Below, in pieces: positions 4,884 through 20,479 of a DNA stretch of 64,000 bases (its first letter is position 1; the number at the start of each line of letters is the position of its first letter). The stretch is taken from assembly GCF_000220525.1 (NCBI RefSeq), contig NZ_AFPK01000026.1:62001-126000 (forward strand), given 5' to 3'. The stretch is from Ochrovirga pacifica. Lineage in GTDB: Bacteria; Bacteroidota; Bacteroidia; Flavobacteriales; Flavobacteriaceae. Under the pieces are notes generated by a model. That model did no database searches. It worked only from the letters and a program-made list of their open reading frames with translations, and was not told where the DNA came from. Position numbers and translations under genes: made by a program.

Positions 4884-5525
4884 TTAGTTTTTAGCTAAAT
4901 AAGCAGCTGTAGATTTTGCATCGGCTCCCATTGCTTCTTTACCTTCTTCCCAGTTTGCAGGACATACTTCTCCATGAGTTTGTACGTGAGCATAAGCATC
5001 AATCAATCTTAGGAATTCGTTTACGTTACGTCCTACAGGCATGTGGTTAATTCCTTCGTGGAATACAGTTCCTTCTTCATCAATTAAGTAAGTAGCACGG
5101 TAAGTTACATTGTCTCCTTCTTTAATATAAGTTCCTGTTTCCTCGTTGTAAGTTTCGTCAGTAATGTCTAAAATCCCTAAAACTTCGGCCAAATTTCTAT
5201 TAGAATCTGCTAACAATGGGTAAGTAACTCCTTCAATTCCTCCGTTGTCTTTTGCAGTACTTAACCAAGCAAAATGCACTTCTGGAGTATCACAAGAAGC
5301 ACCAATCACTACGGTGTTTCTTTTTTCGAACTCACCTAAAGCAGCTTGAAAAGCGTGTAATTCTGTTGGACACACAAAAGTAAAATCTTTTGGGTACCAG
5401 AACAACAATACTTTTTTCTTATTGTTAATTGCTTCTTCTAATACGTTTACTTTAAAAGTATCCCCTAATTCGTTCATTGCATCTACTGCTAAATTTGGAA
5501 ATTTCTTCCCTACTGCTGTTGCCAT
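4884..5525 (-). CDS. 2-Cys peroxiredoxin (AhpC/Prx1 class)
   Basis: Reduces hydrogen peroxide and alkyl hydroperoxides in the cytosol. Of 213 residues, the peroxidatic Cys52 sits in FTFVCPTE after FWYPKD, and the resolving Cys188 is in EVCPANW near the C-terminus, so this is a typical 2-Cys enzyme. The catalytic Thr/Ser of PxxT/SxxC is present (PTE follows Cys). Its likely electron donor is the thioredoxin encoded next. A candidate -7 box TACATTTG lies about 40 bases upstream (5572-5565) without a good -33 partner. The intergenic region is shared with divergent msrA. Confidence 0.93.
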   Translation of the reverse strand: MATAVGKKFPNLAVDAMNELGDTFKVNVLEEAINNKKKVLLFWYPKDFTFVCPTELHAFQAALGEFEKRNTVVIGASCDTPEVHFAWLSTAKDNGGIEGVTYPLLADSNRNLAEVLGILDITDETYNEETGTYIKEGDNVTYRATYLIDEEGTVFHEGINHMPVGRNVNEFLRLIDAYAHVQTHGEVCPANWEEGKEAMGADAKSTAAYLAKN

Positions 5526-5733
5526 AATTTATTTTATTTATTGATTTGATTAAATATTCTATTACAAATGTAAGTGCAAAGTTTTATCTCACCATAAATT
5601 TTCAATCTATTGTTTTTATATCCATATTGATTTTATCAATAGTAAAAATTATTGCATTGTAATTCTCAATACGTATTCTCTTCCAATTTTGTAATTTAAC
5701 ATTTTATCATCGACCTAATATTAAAATAACCTT

Positions 5734-6309
5734 ATGAGATATTTAATTATTCTTTTGATTTCTTTTAATTCTTTGGCACAAACCAAAGCTCCAATCAACC
5801 CCAATTTAAAGGTTGCCTATTTTGCTAGCGGATGTTTTTGGTGTGTAGAAGCTATTTATGAAAGTATTCCTGGAGTAGAGGAAGTAATTTCTGGATACGC
5901 AGGTAGTAGCGTAAAAAACCCTACTTACAGAACTATAAAAGATACTGGGCATGCAGAAACGGTTGCTGTTTATTACCACCCTAACCAAGTAAATTTTAAA
6001 ACTTTGGTAAAAGCATATTACGATTCTCAAGATCCTACTACCGTGGGACAAAAACCCGATTTTGGAAAAAGTTACAGATCTATCATTTTTTACAACAATG
6101 CAGAAGAGCAAAACATTGCTTGGGATGCGTTTAAAATCATCAACAAAAAACACAACGGAAAAGCAGTTACTAGCATCGAGAAAATTGGAAAGTTTTATCC
6201 TGCTGAAGACTACCATCAAGATTTTGAAAAAAGAAATCCTAATCACCCTTATATCAAAGCAGTTTCTATTCCTAGACTGAATCGATTTAAAGAAAAGTTT
6301 TTTGATTAA
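5734..6309 (+). CDS. msrA: Peptide-methionine (S)-S-oxide reductase, exported
   Basis: Repairs S-methionine sulfoxide in proteins. The catalytic motif GCFWC has Cys34 as nucleophile; the family hallmark VEEVISGYAGSSVKNPTY and EDYHQDF follow. An N-terminal hydrophobic segment ending SLAQ (residues 1-15) looks like a signal peptide, so this copy probably acts in the periplasm. No MsrB domain is fused: the 191 residues hold only MsrA. It is divergent from the peroxiredoxin gene, so both may answer to oxidative stress. Confidence 0.93.
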   Translation: MRYLIILLISFNSLAQTKAPINPNLKVAYFASGCFWCVEAIYESIPGVEEVISGYAGSSVKNPTYRTIKDTGHAETVAVYYHPNQVNFKTLVKAYYDSQDPTTVGQKPDFGKSYRSIIFYNNAEEQNIAWDAFKIINKKHNGKAVTSIEKIGKFYPAEDYHQDFEKRNPNHPYIKAVSIPRLNRFKEKFFD

Positions 6310-6370
6310 GCTATTGATCTTTTTGGGTTTTCTTGATTTTTTTGTAATTTAAGTGGAAAACAAAAAAGAC

Positions 6371-6670
6371 ATGAACACAACAAAATTTGATACTTTGGCA
6401 AACGCCACCAATCACCTAACCAACCTAGGTTATACTGATAATTTTATAGCAAAAGATAGTACAATTCAGGCTCTTTACTCTAAAAAAAATTTTAAACCTA
6501 CGGAATTAAGAATTGACGAAAAATATCGTTTTGAAGGAATGACCAATCCATCGGATCAATCGGAATTATTTGCGATAACTGCCAATGATGGAACTAAAGG
6601 AACTTTAACCATGTCGTACAGTGCAGAGAGCAATCAGAATAGAGAGTTAATTAAACAAATAGAATCATAA
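6371..6670 (+). CDS. Small conserved Bacteroidota protein
   Basis: A 99-residue soluble protein (MNTTKFDTLANATNHLTNLGY). It resembles small Bacteroidota proteins often labelled 'phosphoribosylpyrophosphate synthetase', a name not justified here because no PRPP or ATP site is visible. Motifs seen are DTLANATNHL near the start, YRFEGMTNPSDQSELFAI in the middle and GTKGTLTMSY. ATG 6371 is chosen; an in-frame GTG at 6353 is less likely. Function unknown. Confidence 0.75.
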   Translation: MNTTKFDTLANATNHLTNLGYTDNFIAKDSTIQALYSKKNFKPTELRIDEKYRFEGMTNPSDQSELFAITANDGTKGTLTMSYSAESNQNRELIKQIES

Positions 6671-6720
6671 CTAACAATTTTGTAAAGGTGACATAGCACT
6701 TATACCTATTTATCCTAATA

Positions 6721-6759
6721 AAAAGAGCGTAAAATATAACAACTATTTTACGCTCTTTT
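6721..6759. terminator. Bidirectional terminator before convergent ligA
   Basis: A perfect 16-bp stem (AAAAGAGCGTAAAATA / TATTTTACGCTCTTTT) around a short loop, ending in T residues on both strands, between convergent genes. Confidence 0.9.
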
Positions 6760-6768
6760 TATTGGTTT

Positions 6769-8809
<2,041 letters not shown>

Positions 8810-12833: not shown

Positions 12834-13568
12834 TTATTGATCATTCAACTTATTCATAATTTGATTGATTTTATCCTCGATACCCGAAGTAAACTTCGGG
12901 TATCTTTTTAAAAGCACCTCTGTTACTTTCCAAAAATAAACCTCATCATTAATATCTATTTCTATTATTGGTACATGAATATGATCAGCCTTTAATAAAT
13001 GATGTGTTTCATTTTTTTGATATCTTCTTACAAACAAATCAGACTTATGCAAAACAATTAAGACTTCTCCCTTTTTTATTTCTGATGCCAAGACTCTTGT
13101 TCCAACAACTACATCGTGCAAAAACAAACCTTCGTGATTGACAACCATGGTTAAATCTTGGGTTTCAAAAGCCAAATAATTTTCATTCTCTTTTATTGGT
13201 AAAGTAAGCGTGGGCAAATCTGCATAACTTTGTGTTTTGGGAAAATTCTCTGTAAATCTTTTTAAATTCAACGCAGCTACAAACGGAACTTTTACCAACG
13301 CATTTTTCATTACTTGATGTATGTCTGTTGTAATACCACCATCAAAACTTAACAATTGATTTACGGTAACCTCTTTTGTTAGCATGTCATCTATAGAAAT
13401 GCTAAAATAATTAGCTACTTTAATAATTGTATCAATCTTAGGTTCACTCCTACCCTCTTCGTAAGCCCCTAGTGTAGCTCTTTTTAAATCAAACAAATCG
13501 GCAAAAACTTGTTGACTCATTTTTTTCACACTTCTAATTTTTTTAACATTTCTACCAAAAAATGACAT
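12834..13568 (-). CDS. XRE-family regulator with S24/LexA-like C-terminal domain
   Basis: 244 residues. HTH_3 domain at about 8-62 (MSQQVFADLFDLKRATLGAY is the recognition unit), then a C-terminal half (about 105-215) resembling the beta-rich S24 peptidase fold (LTLPIKENENYLAFETQ, GTRVLASEIKKGEVLIV). A Ser/Lys autocleavage pair is not evident, so it is more likely a ligand or dimerisation domain than a self-cleaving repressor. It is divergent from the PspA/polyamine cluster. Two matching 18-bp motifs in the intergenic region are likely its operators, one 3-20 bases upstream of its own ATG, which implies autoregulation. Confidence 0.85.
   Translation of the reverse strand: MSFFGRNVKKIRSVKKMSQQVFADLFDLKRATLGAYEEGRSEPKIDTIIKVANYFSISIDDMLTKEVTVNQLLSFDGGITTDIHQVMKNALVKVPFVAALNLKRFTENFPKTQSYADLPTLTLPIKENENYLAFETQDLTMVVNHEGLFLHDVVVGTRVLASEIKKGEVLIVLHKSDLFVRRYQKNETHHLLKADHIHVPIIEIDINDEVYFWKVTEVLLKRYPKFTSGIEDKINQIMNKLNDQ
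12879..12909 (+). terminator. Terminator for the FAS1 gene inside the XRE coding region
   Basis: GATACCCGAA, a 6-base loop, TTCGGGTATC, then TTTTT on the plus strand. It lies 52 bases after the FAS1 stop, inside the C-terminal codons of the convergent XRE gene. Confidence 0.75.
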
Positions 13569-13570
13569 AT

Positions 13571-13588
13571 TTTGCTAATTTTATTTGC
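13571..13588. promoter_or_regulatory. Candidate XRE operator, copy 1
   Basis: TTTGCTAATTTTATTTGC. It matches copy 2 (13679-13696, opposite orientation) at 16 of 18 positions. It overlaps the -33 TTG of the cluster promoter and lies just upstream of the XRE start codon. Binding here could repress both directions. Confidence 0.55.
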
Positions 13589-13614
13589 AATTATATTTTT
13601 TACTCGTATATTTG
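13585..13614 (+). promoter_or_regulatory. Promoter of the PspA/polyamine cluster
   Basis: TTG (13585-13587), a 19-base spacer, TATATTTG (13607-13614): the best consensus promoter in the window. Predicted start near 13621, leaving a leader of about 160 bases before the YbjN-like ATG. Confidence 0.65.
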
Positions 13615-13678
13615 ATCCGTAATAATCCTTAAAAAAACCACTACAATGCATCAAAAATAAAGCAAAACAGCTCTAAAA

Positions 13679-13696
13679 GCAAATTATATTAGCAAA
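13679..13696. promoter_or_regulatory. Candidate XRE operator, copy 2
   Basis: GCAAATTATATTAGCAAA, the inverted counterpart of copy 1, lies downstream of the promoter inside the presumed leader. Centres are 108 bp apart, so looping or roadblock repression is possible. Confidence 0.5.
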
Positions 13697-13782
13697 CAAA
13701 AATAAAATTCTAACCTTTCAAAACATCTTTAACTCAAATGTGTTTTGTAATATTAAAAAGAAAAAATCTTAATTCTAGTTAC

Positions 13783-14178
13783 ATGGAAAACCACTTCGAT
13801 ACAATCAAAAATTATTTAATAGAACTGAATTATAGCATTTCTCACGAAGATAAAGAAGACGGAATTATTATGATTCAAAATCAAAGTGAAGGAATTAACA
13901 ACATGATTCTTGGCATTGCCGATCCTATTTTGATTATTGAGCAATACATTTTTAAAATAAACCAACCTAACGAAACTATTTTTAAACAGTTACTTCAGAA
14001 AAACAGAGACATTGTACATGGTGCATTTGTTTTGGACGAATCGGGAGAAAAGGTAATTTTTAGAGACACTTTACAAATAGAAAATATTGATTTGAACGAA
14101 TTAGAAGCATCAATCAATTCTCTAGGTTTGTTACTAAGCGAATTTTCAGATCAGATTATAGAATTTTCAAAAGCATAA
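13783..14178 (+). CDS. YbjN-like protein (type III secretion chaperone-like fold)
   Basis: A 131-residue soluble acidic protein (MENHFDTIKNYLIELNYSIS) with the alpha/beta pattern of YbjN-like proteins: short helix, strands IIMIQNQSEGINNMILGIAD, helix pair, then GAFVLDESGEKVIFRDTLQ. YbjN-type folds resemble secretion chaperones and commonly sit beside PspA genes; a PspA-binding or chaperone role is inference. ATG 13783 was chosen over an upstream in-frame ATG at 13738, which would add 15 residues of unlike composition. It is the first gene of the cluster. A weak hairpin (about 14186-14205) without a T-run follows. Confidence 0.78.
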   Translation: MENHFDTIKNYLIELNYSISHEDKEDGIIMIQNQSEGINNMILGIADPILIIEQYIFKINQPNETIFKQLLQKNRDIVHGAFVLDESGEKVIFRDTLQIENIDLNELEASINSLGLLLSEFSDQIIEFSKA

Positions 14179-14289
14179 CAAAAAAAGAGCGTTCATTACA
14201 ACGCTTAGATTATTAACAATACAATAGATTTTAGATACTGAGAGTAAAATTTTTAAGTATCTAAAGTTTTTAACAAAAAAAATACAATT

Positions 14290-14988
14290 ATGAATATTTT
14301 TAAACGCTTATTTAATGTTGGTAAAGCAGAAGCACACGCTGCTATAGACAAAATGGAAGACCCTATTAAAATGACAGAACAGGGAATTCGTGACATGAAA
14401 AATGATCTGACACAAGCCTTGGAAGGATTGGCACAAGTAAAAGCCATGTTGATTCGATCTAAAAACGATAAAGAGACTTTTGAAACCAAAGCCAAAGATT
14501 ATCAAAATAAAGCCATGCTAATTTTACAAAAAGTGCAAAAAGGTGAACTGTCTTCTGAAGACGGAGACCGTTTGGCTAAAGAAGCTTTGATAAAAAAAGA
14601 AGAAAACCAAGCACATGTAAACAGAGCACAGGTAGAGATTGAAAAATTTACAGACTCCGTTAACCAGCTAGAACGTAATGTAAACACATTAAAAAGTAAT
14701 ATTAGCAAATGGGAAAATGAACTAAAAACCCTAAAAGCTCGTGTAAAAGTATCTAACGCAACCAAAAATCTAAACAAACAAATGGCTGCTATAGACAGTT
14801 CTAGCACTGTAAACATGTTAGAAAAAATGAAAGAAAAAGTAGCACAAGAAGAAGCTTTAGCTGATGCATACGGAGATATTGCTAACGAATCTAAAAGTGT
14901 AGACGAAGAAATTGACAAAGTACTAGACAATACCAACACTAGTGCAGATAACGATCTAGATGCCTTAAAAAAACAAATGGGATTGTAA
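14290..14988 (+). CDS. pspA: PspA/IM30 family protein
   Basis: A 232-residue, almost wholly alpha-helical coiled-coil protein of the ESCRT-III-like PspA/Vipp1 family, which coats and protects the inner membrane under stress. The amphipathic N-terminus (MNIFKRLFNVGKAEAHAAID) is followed by the family signature KMEDPIKMTEQGIRDMKNDL, the long hairpin helices and a C-terminal DLDALKKQMGL tail typical of the LiaH/YjfJ type. There is no pspF, pspB or pspC nearby; control is probably through the XRE regulator. A T-rich hairpin follows the gene, so downstream genes may be partly attenuated. Confidence 0.9.
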   Translation: MNIFKRLFNVGKAEAHAAIDKMEDPIKMTEQGIRDMKNDLTQALEGLAQVKAMLIRSKNDKETFETKAKDYQNKAMLILQKVQKGELSSEDGDRLAKEALIKKEENQAHVNRAQVEIEKFTDSVNQLERNVNTLKSNISKWENELKTLKARVKVSNATKNLNKQMAAIDSSSTVNMLEKMKEKVAQEEALADAYGDIANESKSVDEEIDKVLDNTNTSADNDLDALKKQMGL

Positions 14989-15001
14989 GTTCAAAAAACA
15001 T

Positions 15002-15035
15002 AAAAGACAATAAACTATGGCTTGTTGTCTTTTTT
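15002..15035 (+). terminator. Hairpin with T-run after pspA
   Basis: AAAAGACAA pairs with TTGTCTTTT, followed by T residues, 14 bases after pspA and overlapping the leader of the next gene. It may lower expression of the rest of the cluster relative to pspA. Confidence 0.6.
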
Positions 15036-15045
15036 AATAAAAATT

Positions 15046-15642
15046 ATGAGAATTTTATACAGATTACTAGCTATTCTTTTTTTGTGGAGTGTATTTTCTT
15101 GTGTAAAAAAAGAAAAGACAATACACCCTAAGTCCATTGCAATGAACAAAAAAGCTACTACGTTTTATTTACAAAACAAACTCGATAGTGCCTTTCTGTA
15201 TTTAAATAAATCTATTGAGATCGATGCAAAAAATACTGCTTCTATAAGTACTAAGATGAGTCTGTATATTAAACAAAAAAAATACGCAGAAGCCTTAGCT
15301 GAGAACTCAACTTTGCTAAAATTAAACTCCGACTCTGGAGGTACTTATTTTATAAGAGGTATCTTGTTGGAACGGCTTCAAGATAGTGCAAAAGCTAAAG
15401 AAGCATTTCTCAAAAGCGTATCTATTTTTGATATAGATCTATCAAAAGTTAGAGAAGAGAAACAATCTAAGAGCATTCGGATGAACAGAGCTATTTCCTT
15501 GTTGTTTTTAGGTGATGACCAGGCTTTTAAAAAACAGTTAAACATACTTTCACATAGCAAAGATGAATGGGATAAGAAAATGTTAAAAACCTATCACAAA
15601 ATAACAAAAAAATCTATTACGAACAACATACTATCGGAGTGA
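15046..15642 (+). CDS. TPR-repeat lipoprotein
   Basis: 198 residues: short signal sequence with lipobox VFSC (MRILYRLLAILFLWSVFSC), then TPR-like helices (KATTFYLQNKLDSAFLYLNKSIEI, KKYAEALAENSTLLKLNSDSG, ERLQDSAKAKEAFLKS). Probably an outer-membrane-anchored scaffold facing the periplasm; partner unknown. The upstream TTG at 15022 is rejected because ATG 15046 starts the signal peptide directly. It sits inside the PspA/polyamine cluster. Confidence 0.75.
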   Translation: MRILYRLLAILFLWSVFSCVKKEKTIHPKSIAMNKKATTFYLQNKLDSAFLYLNKSIEIDAKNTASISTKMSLYIKQKKYAEALAENSTLLKLNSDSGGTYFIRGILLERLQDSAKAKEAFLKSVSIFDIDLSKVREEKQSKSIRMNRAISLLFLGDDQAFKKQLNILSHSKDEWDKKMLKTYHKITKKSITNNILSE

Positions 15643-15706
15643 CGATAAATGTGCATATTTACAGTGGATATGGATGTTCTATGAAAGTTATTAAACAAAA
15701 TACCAC

Positions 15707-16258
15707 ATGAGAATATTTAACTTTTTTAAAAAGAAAGAAACAGAACGACACTTTGACCCCCTGAATATTAAGGTGGCCGATTTAGAAAAAAATTATTTAT
15801 TTGACTACAACCTAGAAACTTGGATGGTAACAGCCATGTTTGAGTATGATTGGGGAAACAACTTTTTTACAAGAGAGTTTGTCGTTAAAAATGGTTCGCA
15901 AAAAAAATACCTAGAGATTGAAGATGACGGAGGGCTTACACTTACGCTTTCTAGAGACATTAAACTGCGAAAATTAGGAGTCAATGTTACCAATCACATC
16001 GATCTTAATAACGAGCCTCCCAAAGAAATTGTTTTTGAAGGCACTCTTTATTATTTAGACGAAAAATCTCCTGGTTACAGTAGAAATGTAGAAAACGACA
16101 ACTGGGAAGAACTGCTATCTTTTGACTATTTTGATGAAGATGAACAAAAAACACTCTGTATAACCCAATATGGTGATTATGAGTTTGAAGCCACACAAGG
16201 AATCGTAATTCAAGAATCAGATATCAGCAACATTTTACCCGCCCAGCAGGATAATTAA
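15707..16258 (+). CDS. DUF4178-like protein
   Basis: A 183-residue soluble protein (MRIFNFFKKKETERHFDPLN). It resembles DUF4178: an alternating beta pattern with REFVVKNGSQKKYLEIEDDGG, EIVFEGTLYYLDEKSPGYSR, NWEELLSFDYFDED and YEFEATQGIVI. Function unknown, but DUF4178 genes recur next to DUF350, spermidine-synthase-like and AdoMet decarboxylase genes, exactly as here. There is no signal peptide, so it is probably cytosolic or peripheral to the inner membrane. Confidence 0.7.
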   Translation: MRIFNFFKKKETERHFDPLNIKVADLEKNYLFDYNLETWMVTAMFEYDWGNNFFTREFVVKNGSQKKYLEIEDDGGLTLTLSRDIKLRKLGVNVTNHIDLNNEPPKEIVFEGTLYYLDEKSPGYSRNVENDNWEELLSFDYFDEDEQKTLCITQYGDYEFEATQGIVIQESDISNILPAQQDN

Positions 16259-16284
16259 TTATATTTGATTCAAAATTCTTCAAC

Positions 16285-17082
16285 ATGAAATATTTTATCA
16301 AAATCAGTTTTTTTGTATTGATTTTAAGTTTGTTTTCTTGTGGTAGCGATCGTCCTAAATACGTAAAATCTCCTATAGACAATTTAATTACTCAATACAT
16401 TGATGAGCAAAATTACAGTGTAATTTTAGCAGATATGAACTACAATGAAAATCAAGATGCGTATTTTCATAAATATAAAATTATTATTCCTACGCCCAAC
16501 AACACTCCTAGTGCCGAGGATGACTTTAATCTAAAAACTACTGATTGGAAAAAGGTAAGTCCCGTAATTTTTGAACAATATCAAAATGACTTAGGAATGA
16601 CTATTTTATCTAAAAAAAATGGAGTTTTAGATAAAAAAACAGCTCCTGCAGGTTACGACAACTATGTAGGAAATCCTAAATATGGGCACTGGCAAACAGC
16701 CTCTAACGGAAGTTCTTTTTGGGCTTTTTACGGACAATATGCTTTTATGCAATCACTTTTTGGCTGGGGTTCTGGCTACCGTTATTACAGAGACGATTAC
16801 AATTACTACAACAACTACAGGGGCCGTAGTAACTATTATGGTAGAAACAATACATTTGGCACCAAAAACTATAAAAATAGTAATTCTACCTGGGCTAGTA
16901 AATCTCAAAGTTTTAAACAAAGAGTACAAAGTAAGGTAAAAAAAAGTAGCTCTTATGCTAAGTCTAAAAGTTACTCTTCTGGTAAAAGCTATGGCACGTC
17001 TAACAAAAAAACTTACAGAAGTAACAGTCGCTACAATAGTGGTTCTTCTTACCGCTCTAGAAGTGGTGGTTTCGGAAAATAA
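16285..17082 (+). CDS. Lipoprotein with Tyr/Arg/Ser-rich low-complexity tail
   Basis: 265 residues. Lipobox LSLFSC, then a folded N-terminal part (about 25-165) and a low-complexity C-terminal third dominated by Tyr, Asn, Arg, Ser and Gly, ending SRSGGFGK. It occupies the place of DUF4247 lipoproteins in related clusters of other phyla and has the same layout (lipoprotein with a Ser/Gly-rich basic tail), but I cannot confirm homology. The tail is strongly basic and aromatic, so it could bind polyanions or phase-separate; that is speculation. Confidence 0.65.
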   Translation: MKYFIKISFFVLILSLFSCGSDRPKYVKSPIDNLITQYIDEQNYSVILADMNYNENQDAYFHKYKIIIPTPNNTPSAEDDFNLKTTDWKKVSPVIFEQYQNDLGMTILSKKNGVLDKKTAPAGYDNYVGNPKYGHWQTASNGSSFWAFYGQYAFMQSLFGWGSGYRYYRDDYNYYNNYRGRSNYYGRNNTFGTKNYKNSNSTWASKSQSFKQRVQSKVKKSSSYAKSKSYSSGKSYGTSNKKTYRSNSRYNSGSSYRSRSGGFGK

Positions 17083-17104
17083 TCAACAATATAAAAATTA
17101 GATC

Positions 17105-17974
17105 ATGGATACAGCGTTTGATTTTACAACCTATTTCTACTCCGCAGGATATGTACTCTCTGGATTGCTTATTTTTGTTTTAGGAAAATTAGCTTACAAG
17201 TTTACCCATTCAAAAATCAATATTCAGAATGAATTGGTAGAAAAAGACAATTTTGCTTTTATACTTTCTTACATAGGATATTTTATTGGCTTGTTAATTA
17301 CCATTGGCGGTAGCATTATTGGCGAAAGCTATGGTTTTTGGATAGATATTGAGCATATTTTTATCTATGGAACTTTATCCATTTTGTTGCTTCAAATTTC
17401 TAATTTTATAGCTAACAAGCTTATTTTGCCTAAGTTTGATTTGAAAAAAGAAATAATTATTGATCAAAATGAAGGAACGGGAATTATAGAAGCCATTATT
17501 TACGTTGTAAACGGACTTATTTTATACGGTGCTTTGGTTGGAGAATCAGAAACCTTAACCGAAGGAATTTTAACTTTTGTAATCTATTGGGCTATTGGAA
17601 ATATTATGTTAGTCCTTACTTCTAAAATTTACGGTTGGTGGCTAGATTACAATATTCATGAACAGATTGAAAAAGACAATGTTGCTGCAGGAATTGCTTT
17701 TGGAGGTGCTTTGTTAGCTATAGGAATTATTATTATGAATGCTTTAATTGCTCCTTTTGAAGACTGGACAACCACTATTATTGATATTTCTATACAAATG
17801 GTTTTGGCTACAATCTTGTTACCAATAATGCGCTTTTTTGCTGATACAATTCTATTACCTGGGCAAAAATTAACGGATGAAATTGTGCATCAAGAAAAGC
17901 CCAATTTAGGAGCTGGTTTGGTAGAAGCTTTTGCCTATGCAGGTTCTGCTGTTCTAATTTCTTGGTGCTTGTAA
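17105..17974 (+). CDS. DUF350 (YjfL-like) membrane protein, duplicated
   Basis: A 289-residue inner-membrane protein with about eight hydrophobic helices in two halves, each a DUF350-like unit. The conserved charged-then-small motif recurs: LVEKDNFAFILSYIGYFIG, IEKDNVAAGIAFGGALLAIG and HQEKPNLGAGLVEAFAYAG. DUF350 proteins accompany PspA homologues and polyamine ligases (as YjfL does in E. coli). The role is unknown; a channel or sensor in the inner membrane is plausible. It lies 22 bases after the preceding lipoprotein. Confidence 0.8.
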   Translation: MDTAFDFTTYFYSAGYVLSGLLIFVLGKLAYKFTHSKINIQNELVEKDNFAFILSYIGYFIGLLITIGGSIIGESYGFWIDIEHIFIYGTLSILLLQISNFIANKLILPKFDLKKEIIIDQNEGTGIIEAIIYVVNGLILYGALVGESETLTEGILTFVIYWAIGNIMLVLTSKIYGWWLDYNIHEQIEKDNVAAGIAFGGALLAIGIIIMNALIAPFEDWTTTIIDISIQMVLATILLPIMRFFADTILLPGQKLTDEIVHQEKPNLGAGLVEAFAYAGSAVLISWCL

Positions 17975-17994
17975 GAACATTACGGTACTTTGTT

Positions 17995-18019
17995 ATCTTA
18001 ATATTAATTTTATTAAGAT
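17995..18019 (+). repeat. AT-rich inverted repeat before the spermidine synthase gene
   Basis: ATCTTAATA, a 7-base spacer, TATTAAGAT: a perfect 9-bp stem, 45 bases before the TTG start. It could be a weak RNA hairpin tuning the downstream genes. No T-run of terminator type follows. Confidence 0.4.
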
Positions 18020-18063
18020 GCATTAAGTGTCAAAGGCAATATTCAAATTAAAAAGCTCACAAT

Positions 18064-19611
18064 TTGAACTTCTTTAAAAAAAATTCTTTTGTATTAAAAG
18101 CAGCCATATTCGCAACTGGTTTTGCAGGGATTGTTGCAGAATACATCCTATCTACTTTAGCCACTTATTTTATTGGAAATTCTATTTTTCAATGGACCAT
18201 GATTGTATCTCTTATGCTGTTTTGTATGGGACTAGGTAGTCGATGGAGTAAAAAAATAAACAAAAACCTAATTCAAAATTTTCTTTTACTAGAAGTTTCT
18301 CTCTCTTTACTGGTCGCTTTTTCATCAGTTTTGGTATATACTTTGGCTGCTTTTACAGAATTGTACGCTTTGGTTATTTATGTTTTAAGCATGCTTATTG
18401 GTTTGCTAATCGGTTTAGAAATTCCGTTAGTGGTTAGAATCAATAAAGAATATGAAGATTTAAAAAGCAATATCTCCTCTATTTTAGAAAAGGATTATTA
18501 CGGAAGCTTGTTAGGTGGTGTCTTTTTTGCTTTTGTAGGTTTACCCGTTTTAGGCTTAACCTACACTCCGTTTGTTCTCGGAATCATCAACTTTATGGTG
18601 GCTCTAATCGTTTTATTTCGTTTTAAAGAAAAACTTAAACCTATAAAAAACAGAAAACTACAATTAATTTTATCTCTTGTTTTTGCTATTTTAATTTCTG
18701 GAGTTATGGTAACTCAGCCTATTATTCAGTGGGGAGAGCAAAAAAAATACAAAGATAAAGTCATCTTTTCGGAACAAACTAAATATCAAAAAATAGTAAT
18801 TACCGAATGGAAAAACCAACATTGGTTGTACTTAAACGGAAATCTGCAATTTTGTTCTATTGACGAAAAAATGTATCACGAACCCTTAGTACACCCCATT
18901 ATGAAACTGCATCAACAACCGCAAAACATCTTAATTTTAGGAGGAGGTGATGGATGTGCTGTTAGGGAATTACTCAAATATCCTTCGGTAAACAAAATAG
19001 ATTTGGTGGATTTAGACCCTGTAATGACCCAACTTGGAAAAGAACACCCTGTTTTATTGGCTCAAAATTTGGGAAGCTTAAATTCTGAAAAAGTAACTAT
19101 CTACAACCAAGATGCTTATATTTTTTTAGAGCAAAACACAACCAATTTTTACGATGTAATTATTGCCGATTTGCCCGACCCTAGAACCATTGAATTAGGA
19201 CGTTTGTACTCTAAAGAATTTTATACCCTTTGCTACAGAAAACTTAGACCCAACGGTGCCATTGTTACCCAAGCAGGTAGTCCTTATTTTGCAACAAAAG
19301 CCTTTAAATGCATTGACAAAACCATAGAAAGTTGTGGCTTTACTACCATCAAACTCCACAACCAAGTATTGTCAATGGGAGAGTGGGGATGGATTTTAGG
19401 AACCAAAGAGTCCATCAAATCTAGTGAATTAAAAAAAAGAATACAATCTCTAGAATTTCATAACACAAAGTGGATTAACAACGAAGCCATGCAGCTTATT
19501 ACGTCTTTTGGAAAAGATTTTTTTAATGTTGATGCTGTGATTGAAATTAACAGTGTACATCATCCTGTTTTGTACAAGTACTATTTAAAAGGAAATTGGG
19601 ATTTATATTAA
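18064..19611 (+). CDS. Membrane-embedded polyamine aminopropyltransferase (spermidine synthase-like)
   Basis: 515 residues: an N-terminal block of about seven transmembrane helices (1-225), then a cytosolic spermidine synthase domain (about 235-500). Seen: AdoMet-type loop LGGGDGCAVRE (G293-G297), acidic LVDLDP that binds the ribose, and the catalytic ADLPDP (D369, D372) aligning with the DSTDP motif of SpeE. It should transfer aminopropyl from decarboxylated AdoMet, which the next gene can supply, to an amine acceptor; the acceptor is unknown. A stop at 18049 and loss of the first helix with any later ATG force a TTG start at 18064. Confidence 0.85.
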   Translation: MNFFKKNSFVLKAAIFATGFAGIVAEYILSTLATYFIGNSIFQWTMIVSLMLFCMGLGSRWSKKINKNLIQNFLLLEVSLSLLVAFSSVLVYTLAAFTELYALVIYVLSMLIGLLIGLEIPLVVRINKEYEDLKSNISSILEKDYYGSLLGGVFFAFVGLPVLGLTYTPFVLGIINFMVALIVLFRFKEKLKPIKNRKLQLILSLVFAILISGVMVTQPIIQWGEQKKYKDKVIFSEQTKYQKIVITEWKNQHWLYLNGNLQFCSIDEKMYHEPLVHPIMKLHQQPQNILILGGGDGCAVRELLKYPSVNKIDLVDLDPVMTQLGKEHPVLLAQNLGSLNSEKVTIYNQDAYIFLEQNTTNFYDVIIADLPDPRTIELGRLYSKEFYTLCYRKLRPNGAIVTQAGSPYFATKAFKCIDKTIESCGFTTIKLHNQVLSMGEWGWILGTKESIKSSELKKRIQSLEFHNTKWINNEAMQLITSFGKDFFNVDAVIEINSVHHPVLYKYYLKGNWDLY

Positions 19612-19652
19612 AGTAAAACAAAAAGGTCATCGAGCAAAGTCTAGATGCAATA

Positions 19653-19952
19653 ATGCGAATGGATTTAACTTATAAAAAAATAGAAGCCAATATATACAAC
19701 TATCAATTTTGGACTACTTGTACACAACCTGATGAGTTAAAAAACACATACAAATCCATACTAAACAAAGTTGGGTTTAACATTTTACAGTTTAGTGAAC
19801 ATTATTTTCCAGGACAAGGTTATACATGTTTTTGGTTGTTAGGAGAAAGTCATTTGGCCATTCACACCTTTCCTGAAAGCAATAAAAGTTATGTAGAGCT
19901 AAGCAGTTGCAATAAGGAAAAGTTAGATTTTTTTAAAACTGAAACCTTATGA
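19653..19952 (+). CDS. speD: Short AdoMet decarboxylase proenzyme (SpeD-like)
   Basis: A 99-residue protein of the class 1b AdoMet decarboxylase family, which self-cleaves to give a pyruvoyl group. The cleavage motif LLGESHLAIHTFPE is present. Ser66 (pyruvoyl precursor), His71 and Cys86 have the same spacing (+5, +20) as the catalytic Ser63, His68 and Cys83 of the Thermotoga enzyme, so activity is expected. It is shorter than the usual 115-130 residues and stops soon after the Cys. Its product feeds the aminopropyltransferase just upstream. The last four bases overlap the rhomboid start (ATGA). Confidence 0.85.
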   Translation: MRMDLTYKKIEANIYNYQFWTTCTQPDELKNTYKSILNKVGFNILQFSEHYFPGQGYTCFWLLGESHLAIHTFPESNKSYVELSSCNKEKLDFFKTETL

Positions 19953-20479
19953 ACTACGATTATGTAAAACAGATTTTTGGTTTTATAGGCATATTATACC
20001 TTGTTTGGTTATTAGATTTTGTGTTGCCTCTTTCTCGTTTCGGAATTGTTCCAAGAACGCAACAAGGGTTGATTGGTATTGTAACCGCTCCTTTTTTACA
20101 TGCAAACATTCGCCACTTAATTTCTAATACTTTGCCATTACTTGTTTTGTTATTGGTGTTATTTTCTTTTTATCCTAGAAAAGCAGTAAGCGTGGTGATT
20201 ATTTCTATTTTACTTGGTGGATTGTTAGTTTGGTTGCTTGGACGAAATGCAAACCATATTGGAGCTAGCGGATTAATTTATGGTTTGGCGGCCTTTTTAA
20301 TTGTAAATGGTTTTAACGAGCAAAAAACCATTCCTATTCTAATTTCTATTGCCGTTGCGGTTATCTATGGTGGGCTGTTCTGGGGACTTTTTCCTTCTTT
20401 TAGAGCTTATATTTCTTGGGAAGCTCATTTGTTTGGAGCCATTGCTGGTATAGTAGCAGTCTTTGCATTAAGGAGGTAA
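19949..20479 (+). CDS. Rhomboid family intramembrane serine protease
   Basis: 176 residues with six hydrophobic helices. The catalytic dyad is complete: Ser107 in HIGASGLIYG and His160 in SWEAHLFGAIAG. The upstream helix has LHANIRHLISN, the oxyanion-supporting His/Asn motif. It cleaves transmembrane substrates within the inner membrane. Its ATG overlaps the stop of speD, so it is translationally coupled to the polyamine genes and is probably part of the same response, perhaps removing a membrane-anchored partner. A substrate cannot be named. Confidence 0.9.
   Translation: MNYDYVKQIFGFIGILYLVWLLDFVLPLSRFGIVPRTQQGLIGIVTAPFLHANIRHLISNTLPLLVLLLVLFSFYPRKAVSVVIISILLGGLLVWLLGRNANHIGASGLIYGLAAFLIVNGFNEQKTIPILISIAVAVIYGGLFWGLFPSFRAYISWEAHLFGAIAGIVAVFALRR

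Follow-up and report, generated by a model that had tools for sequence, protein, structure and literature searches.

A membrane aminopropyltransferase of Ochrovirga pacifica and its relatives is paired with dissimilar proteins that end in lysine, its candidate acceptor

Operons built around a dyad of genes for a CesT/Tir-like chaperone and a PspA protein have already been described (Ravi 2024, PMC11237479). In the passages of that paper drawn on here, the second major group of these CesT/Tir-PspA operons comprises six to seven genes, encoding a fusion of a seven-transmembrane (7TM) domain with a spermidine-synthase-like domain, DUF350 and DUF4178 proteins, and a lipoprotein; "aminopropylation of other substrates" was proposed there, with Li 2019 as its source. 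The locus considered here lies within 64,000 nucleotides of Ochrovirga pacifica (Bacteroidota; contig NZ_AFPK01000026.1, positions 62,001 to 126,000), referred to as the window, and by gene order and spacing it contains all of these members: the CesT/Tir-PspA dyad, the fusion, DUF350, DUF4178, and a lipoprotein (Table 1). Its core is a Bacteroidota form of the described operon and hence not new, in keeping with an earlier sequence-only reading of the window, which had seen PspA linked, in a type of locus that recurs, to a membrane aminopropyltransferase and an S-adenosylmethionine (AdoMet) decarboxylase. The window differs from the published operon in the extra gene for this decarboxylase (SpeD) next to the fusion gene, an XRE-type regulator gene, a TPR lipoprotein, and a rhomboid, while its Tyr/Ser/Gly-rich lipoprotein, here called the tail protein, is equated with the published lipoprotein (Ctha_1186 domain) by position only. 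What is new is a near-invariant C-terminal lysine in the mutually dissimilar proteins that partner the fusion. The same passages of Ravi 2024 mention neither the C-terminus of the tail nor a lysine rule, and no account of such a rule was found in the open-licence literature, as covered by titles, abstracts, and some passages.

The tail protein of the window and 39 of its 39 homologs in related loci have the C-terminus Gly-Lys, and the approximately 100 residues preceding it are of low complexity and have diverged. This invariant lysine of the lipoprotein family, the most telling feature, was missed by the sequence-only reading. At other loci, different proteins occupy the same position and likewise end in Gly-Lys or His-Lys (GK/HK), among them DUF4178 proteins with a tail attached through a transmembrane (TM) helix, proteins of the DUF4247 family, and peptides of 46-91 residues that have a single N-terminal hydrophobic stretch. 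The related loci numbered 100, taken as the best 80 of at least 584 confirmed relatives of the fusion in a scan of genome contigs and 20 from Bacteroidota genomes. When the partner was defined as a same-strand open reading frame (ORF) that ends in GK/HK and has its stop codon -30 to 1600 base pairs (bp) upstream of the fusion gene, it was present at 84 of the 95 evaluable loci, which represent 12 phyla as named in the enzyme tree; the 5 further loci were contig edges. The corresponding frequency was 8 of 347 for control genes (Fisher P 5e-68 against the fusion loci, with loci treated as independent) and 0 of 27 for canonical speE loci, three of an initial 30 having been dropped with no main ORF meeting the rule; the background of C-terminal GK/HK was 7 in 512 ORFs.

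The 85 tail proteins (these 84 and that of the window) comprise 67 ending in GK and 18 in HK, with lengths of 46-576 amino acids. Masked for low complexity, they were resolved by blastp into 23 clusters at E 1e-5; unmasked, they gave 18 at 1e-5, 14 at 1e-3, 9 at 1e-2, and 6 at 0.1. The terminal lysine is encoded by AAA in 73 cases and AAG in 11, and because both Lys, all four Gly, and both His codons are used, the constraint acts on the protein. The choice between GK and HK tracks the enzyme tree, with HK tails confined to one part of it (2 changes needed vs 16.8 in shuffles). Among 395 Bacteroidota genomes, the lipoprotein family occurs in 8, all of them among the 29 that carry the fusion, and it always adjoins the fusion gene. 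We consider the pairing of the fusion enzyme with a Lys-ended protein firm. Some of the Lys-ended peptides are tiny, such as those of 46-59 amino acids at loci L043, L046, and L109, and annotation may overlook their like in many genomes. Locus L100 encodes two similar peptides of 53 amino acids ending in YYHK, whose ORFs precede the fusion gene by 312 and 2065 bp and each lie near a short DUF350 gene, an arrangement that suggests tandem duplication of peptide and DUF350 together.

Loci outside this discovery set were also examined. Nine of 13 matching plasmid records were taken (H4, H6, H9, and H11 were excluded, their genera being already represented), and five of the nine have a GK/HK partner, upstream in Ensifer, Gemmatirosa, and two Novosphingobium and, as a GK lipoprotein, downstream of the fusion gene in Alteromonas. 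The Tritonibacter plasmid locus encodes a membrane peptide ending in VK, and the enzyme at the Rhodovulum locus has neither a membrane domain nor a GK/HK partner. Nine further Bacteroidota loci yielded a partner in seven cases and none at L029 and L031, the latter being the locus of a canonical enzyme (genome G069).

A second group of operons resembles the locus in its layout and differs from it in its chemistry. In the Escherichia coli operons yjfIJKLMC and ygiBC, a DUF1190 protein ending in GG adjoins YjfC or YgiC, which RefSeq annotates as peptide--spermidine ligase (the paper cited for it being Pederick 2023). Like the window, these operons combine PspA-like YjfJ, DUF350 protein YjfL, and a tail protein (YjfM, YgiB) beside a polyamine-linked enzyme, and YjfI is described as CesT/Tir-like in the passages used (PMC11237479); however, an ATP-grasp ligase takes the place of the aminopropyltransferase, and their tails end in GG, not GK. 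The genome of the window gave no match to this ligase family (GSP_synth, PF03738). A detector that ignored the last residue was applied to 30 PF03738 loci of Bacteroidota and picked 18 tails (none at 12 loci), the final residue being G in 8, S in 7, A in 2, L in 1, and K in none; these tails form four similarity clusters, and six of them come from lower-scoring PF03738 matches (51.8-70.5 bits, cut-off 29.3). At the fusion loci, 51 of the 55 picks of a last-residue-blind detector end in K (45 of the 100 loci gave no pick), a comparison in which the two detectors differ (ORFs of at least 40 amino acids and upstream only at fusion loci, at least 60 amino acids and both sides at ligase loci) and the motif list was drawn up after the tails had been seen. 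The four other picks (L084, L085, L128, and L132) are likely wrong-frame ORFs, GK ORFs being present in these loci. With K beside the aminopropyltransferase and a small residue beside the ligase, the terminal residue follows the enzyme: an amine end is found where the enzyme alkylates amines, and a small residue where it forms amides at a carboxyl group. In G158 and G064, of one Bacteroidota genus, a GSP_synth-type ligase and a tail ending in (S)YGG are encoded divergently beside the fusion gene, without any Lys tail being detected. This side-by-side arrangement of the two systems is that of L054 (8538-9125 and 7379-8632, - strand), L172, and L173.

The fusion of the window scored 576 bits against the PRK03612 polyamine aminopropyltransferase model (NF002956, cut-off 472), and its Spermine_synth domain, which follows the N-terminal membrane domain, retains the motifs GGGDG, YHE, and DLPDP, as the sequence-only reading had observed. 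The modelled catalytic domain has the spermidine-synthase fold (1uir, Z 34.5), the fusion model having a predicted local distance difference test score (pLDDT) of 95. Canonical SpeE shares this fold and the GGGDG, YHE, and D-x-x-D-P motifs; unlike SpeE, the fusion carries an attached 7TM domain and an invariant Ser406-Pro407 where three aligned solved enzymes differ. Modelled alone (pLDDT 96), the membrane domain gave no Foldseek match at E <0.001, and residues 1-192 of the predicted model align with the six-TM halves of major facilitator superfamily (MFS) transporters, the matches including FLVCR2, Spns2, and NorA (Z 18-20, root-mean-square deviation 2.4-3.1). On the basis of this alignment, the positive loop at residues 185-200 (net charge +2.9, mean of 101 proteins), and a further hydrophobic helix at 193-227 preceding the catalytic domain, a predicted topology with the N-terminus inside, seven TM helices, and the catalytic domain outside the cytoplasmic membrane is fairly supported. 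An extracytoplasmic location is likewise predicted for the tails, which are either lipoproteins or follow a TM helix; for the 27 short peptides, the charge rule favoured an inside N-terminus in 12 and the reverse in 2.

The best reading of the locus, to which we would give an even chance, is that the tail protein is aminopropylated by the fusion at its C-terminal lysine. Computation shows which genes the locus holds, that the tail ends in Lys, that this ending goes with the class of enzyme, and, in predicted models, the spermidine-synthase and MFS-half folds; the acceptor, the outward orientation, the crossing of the donor, the roles of DUF350 and DUF4178, and the physiological role with its connection to envelope stress are inferred, as follows. 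SpeD would generate decarboxylated AdoMet, which would cross the membrane, perhaps through the MFS half of the fusion or through DUF350, and the fusion, with its catalytic domain facing outward, would attach the aminopropyl group of this donor to the C-terminal lysine at its epsilon-amine. The side chain of lysine is a butylamine, like putrescine; once aminopropylated, as N-epsilon-(3-aminopropyl)lysine, it would have the skeleton of spermidine with the alpha carbon replacing one nitrogen. The resulting, more strongly cationic end of the tail may bind to the membrane surface or to anionic envelope polymers, and CesT and PspA would tie its modification to envelope stress. The earlier idea that the locus may modify a protein is supported in this form. 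Diatom silaffins, with polyamine chains on their lysines, and the hypusine of eIF5A also have a lysine epsilon-amine that bears an alkylamine chain, as in the proposed product; those lysines are internal and eukaryotic, and hypusine receives an aminobutyl group from spermidine, whereas the lysine here is C-terminal and bacterial.

The proposed source of the donor is consistent with the sequence of SpeD, whose Ser66, His67, and His71 recur unchanged in all 44 proteins aligned, as the earlier claim of intact catalytic motifs would have it; we take Ser66 to be the processing serine and His71 the catalytic histidine. With these residues and its AdoMet_dc domain, the protein matches the class 1b AdoMet decarboxylases. 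Against TIGR03330 the protein scored 39.4 bits, short of the cut-off of 75.65. Regarding DUF4178, a DUF4178-like part, a TM helix, and a lipoprotein-type tail form one ORF at L091 (5009-6421), next to the only other rhomboid found, and this single-ORF arrangement suggests that DUF4178 acts at the inner face, with the tail on the opposite side.

A number of points weigh against lysine modification, a proposal drawn from sequence and models. SpeD has no export signal (by eye), so that its product, decarboxylated AdoMet, would need a way across the membrane. Residues 133-186 are assigned by DSSP to a single helix in both models, and a six-TM reading of the fusion would place the enzyme inside. 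The remaining 13 of the 27 short peptides tied under the charge rule, giving no preference. Nor is the logic of placing enzyme and tail on the same side general, since E. coli YgiC and YjfC have no signal peptide by eye, yet their partner looks exported. The upstream rule fails at 11 of the 95 loci: L054 has a ligase and a GG tail, L053 has its GK ORF at 1846 bp, the contig of L069 apparently starts inside the operon, and no GK/HK ORF was found upstream at L065, L066, L098, L101, L103, L111, L118, and L134. Two Burkholderia plasmid loci also have no GK/HK partner. The loci, as the best-scoring 80 of at least 584 relatives and 20 of one phylum, leave remoter fusions outside the sample; distant kinship may exist among many of the tail proteins, especially the short ones, since the cluster count drops to 9 or 6 at loose thresholds, and some may be linked by composition only; and the tracking of the enzyme tree by GK and HK is partly expected through linked inheritance of neighbouring genes.

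It is conceivable, if unlikely in our estimation, that the true acceptor is a membrane lipid or other small amine, and that the Lys-ended tail, instead of being the product, docks its C-terminus in or beside the active site to serve as sensor, gate, or autoinhibitor. The enzyme sits in the membrane and has an MFS-type half, the choline/ethanolamine carriers of the FLVCR type are among its top fold matches, and an invariant lysine would also suit a docking signal. However, the MFS-half matches are generic, and the terminal residue switches with the enzyme, from K in 51 of 55 picks with the aminopropyltransferase to G, S, or A in 17 of 18 with the ligase; this switch suits the chemistry of the substrate, an amine or a carboxyl acceptor, better than docking.

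The sequence-only reading had instead held that the locus makes a polyamine, that is, spermidine or a similar free product at the inner membrane during envelope stress, which is now disfavoured and appears improbable. The catalytic residues of the spermidine-synthase fold are retained, and the PRK03612 family is named for polyamine aminopropyltransferases. Moreover, the genome yielded a single PF01564 protein, the fusion, and a single PF02675 protein, SpeD, and of its two PF02784 proteins, one is LysA and the other a SpeA-like decarboxylase encoded beside an agmatinase-like gene; these SpeA-like and agmatinase-like genes, whose products fall below curated cut-offs, could supply putrescine. Nevertheless, the fusion scored 147.8 bits against canonical spermidine synthase (TIGR00417, cut-off 249.55). 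Its distribution in Bacteroidota is patchy, with matches in 30 of the 395 genomes, one of which (G069) holds a canonical enzyme matched by its domain only; all 29 remaining fusions lie below the same cut-off, and three of their genomes also hold a canonical SpeE above it. The lysine-ended partners would be left unexplained, and such fusions, in the work of Li from 2019, reportedly fail to complement a spermidine synthase mutant and so would aminopropylate something other than putrescine. Least credible is that the C-terminal lysine, unconnected with aminopropyl transfer, is recognized by DUF350 or a protease and directs sorting or processing. DUF350 is the most frequent companion of the fusion (54 of 64 loci), and sorting signals can consist of C-terminal dipeptides, but E. 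coli yjfIJKLMC has DUF350 with a tail ending in WGG beside a ligase, and lysine therefore follows the fusion, not DUF350.

The nine + strand ORFs of the locus span 13738-20479, all intact and co-oriented, in the order and with the short gaps behind a divergent XRE gene that the sequence-only reading had described. The gaps are, in order, 111, 33, 64, 26, 22, 89, and 41 bases, the last two ORFs (SpeD and rhomboid) overlap by 4 bases, and a gap of 214 bases lies 3' of the rhomboid ORF. Scans for sigma-70 sites (32 vs 30.9 in shuffles) and terminators (4 vs 3.2) gave no signal above shuffled sequence. The first gene, previously read as YbjN-like, is better described as CesT/Tir-like (Table 1), and the tail protein matched no family over its cut-off in family scans.

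Table 1. Features of the CesT/Tir-PspA locus in the window.
Feature	Position	Strand	Remarks
XRE-type regulator (helix-turn-helix) with weak S24-like C-terminal domain	12834-13568	-	divergent from operon; family scan
CesT/Tir-like chaperone (CesT_Tir_1)	13738-14178	+	192.9 bits vs YbjN 24.5
PspA/IM30 family protein	14290-14988	+	PspA_IM30 145.6 bits
TPR lipoprotein, local addition	15022-15642	+	family scan
DUF4178 protein	15707-16258	+	54.7 bits
Tyr/Ser/Gly-rich lipoprotein (tail protein), proposed substrate	16285-17082	+	lipobox Cys19; ends RSGGFGK
Gly-Lys codons at C-terminus of tail protein; proposed acceptor Lys265	17074-17079	+	stop 17080-17082
Double DUF350 membrane protein	17105-17974	+	165.9 bits, two stretches
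Fusion aminopropyltransferase: MFS half (six TM), seventh TM, and spermidine-synthase-fold catalytic domain	18064-19611	+	
Short S-adenosylmethionine decarboxylase (SpeD)	19653-19952	+	AdoMet_dc 51.7 bits, cut-off 25
Rhomboid, accessory	19949-20479	+	Rhomboid 75.3 bits; closest model rhombosortase, below cut-off

These nine genes are not one conserved set, contrary to the suggestion that they form a single module. Across the 64 related loci with full flanks, DUF350 was found at 54, DUF4178 at 46, SpeD at 34, the lipoprotein family at 26, PspA at 23, CesT at 16, XRE at 5, and TPR and rhomboid at none. At L055 and L056, the nearest two relatives, the stretch of sequence examined gave no PspA match. 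Given these counts, the conserved core consists of DUF4178, the tail protein, DUF350, and the fusion, and PspA, the rhomboid, and the TPR lipoprotein are add-ons to it. XRE profile matches occur in 7 of the 100 related loci, and the gene lies divergently and directly upstream of CesT in L063, L067, L068, and L087.

The rhomboid holds a GASG motif and a later histidine, presumably its catalytic residues, in agreement with the earlier reading of its motifs. Its assignment there to the pathway as a general release or signalling step was rejected, since a homolog adjoins the fusion gene, on its 3' side, in 1 of 100 related loci (L091), a count that a strongly diverged rhomboid would escape. A role as a rhombosortase was likewise rejected: the protein scored 53.8 bits against TIGR03902 (cut-off 84), and the tail is without the GlyGly-CTERM layout, which consists of a Gly/Ser motif, a hydrophobic stretch, and a basic C-terminal end. 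In this comparison, made for the tail of the window only, the protein ends directly in its RSGGFGK sequence, with no hydrophobic stretch after it. The TPR lipoprotein was discarded as a member of the system, being absent at 64 of 64 fully flanked loci; a single TPR match in L067 (E 5e-5, approximately 8 kb downstream) is likely a match to the repeat only.

Other genes accompany the fusion in particular lineages. At L055 (11863-12870) and L056 (11968-12978), SpeD is followed by a membrane protein of 335-336 amino acids that appears ion-channel-like by eye; a related operon group is said to include a potassium channel in the passages used (Ravi 2024, PMC11237479). In Novosphingobium L146, an annotated FAD (flavin adenine dinucleotide)-dependent oxidoreductase is encoded directly 3' of the fusion gene (5439-7055), and ORFs of similar size, approximately 540 amino acids, lie downstream of the fusions in many HK loci. 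Such an oxidoreductase could act on the aminopropyl group.

Extended to the family as a whole, and held a little more tentatively than the reading of the locus itself, the proposal is that in at least 12 phyla an outward-facing aminopropyltransferase with an MFS half aminopropylates the C-terminal lysine of membrane-anchored tail proteins, down to single-helix peptides of 46 residues, that a parallel spermidine ligase caps Gly/Ser tails and arrives at a comparable product, and that polyamine-tipped proteins may be a general device of the envelope, linked to PspA in some lineages. The fusions are said to make no spermidine, on a report by Li of 2019 from which the question of their acceptor dates. 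The Lys-ended partners name one specific atom as the candidate acceptor for these MFS-spermidine-synthase fusions, and the lysine rule helps in recognizing very small genes that annotation may miss. If true, the proposal would add a new bacterial protein modification and account for the presence of AdoMet decarboxylase genes in PspA-type operons, and one idea would unite two families of operons, those pairing an aminopropyltransferase with a Lys tail and those pairing a spermidine ligase with a Gly/Ser tail.

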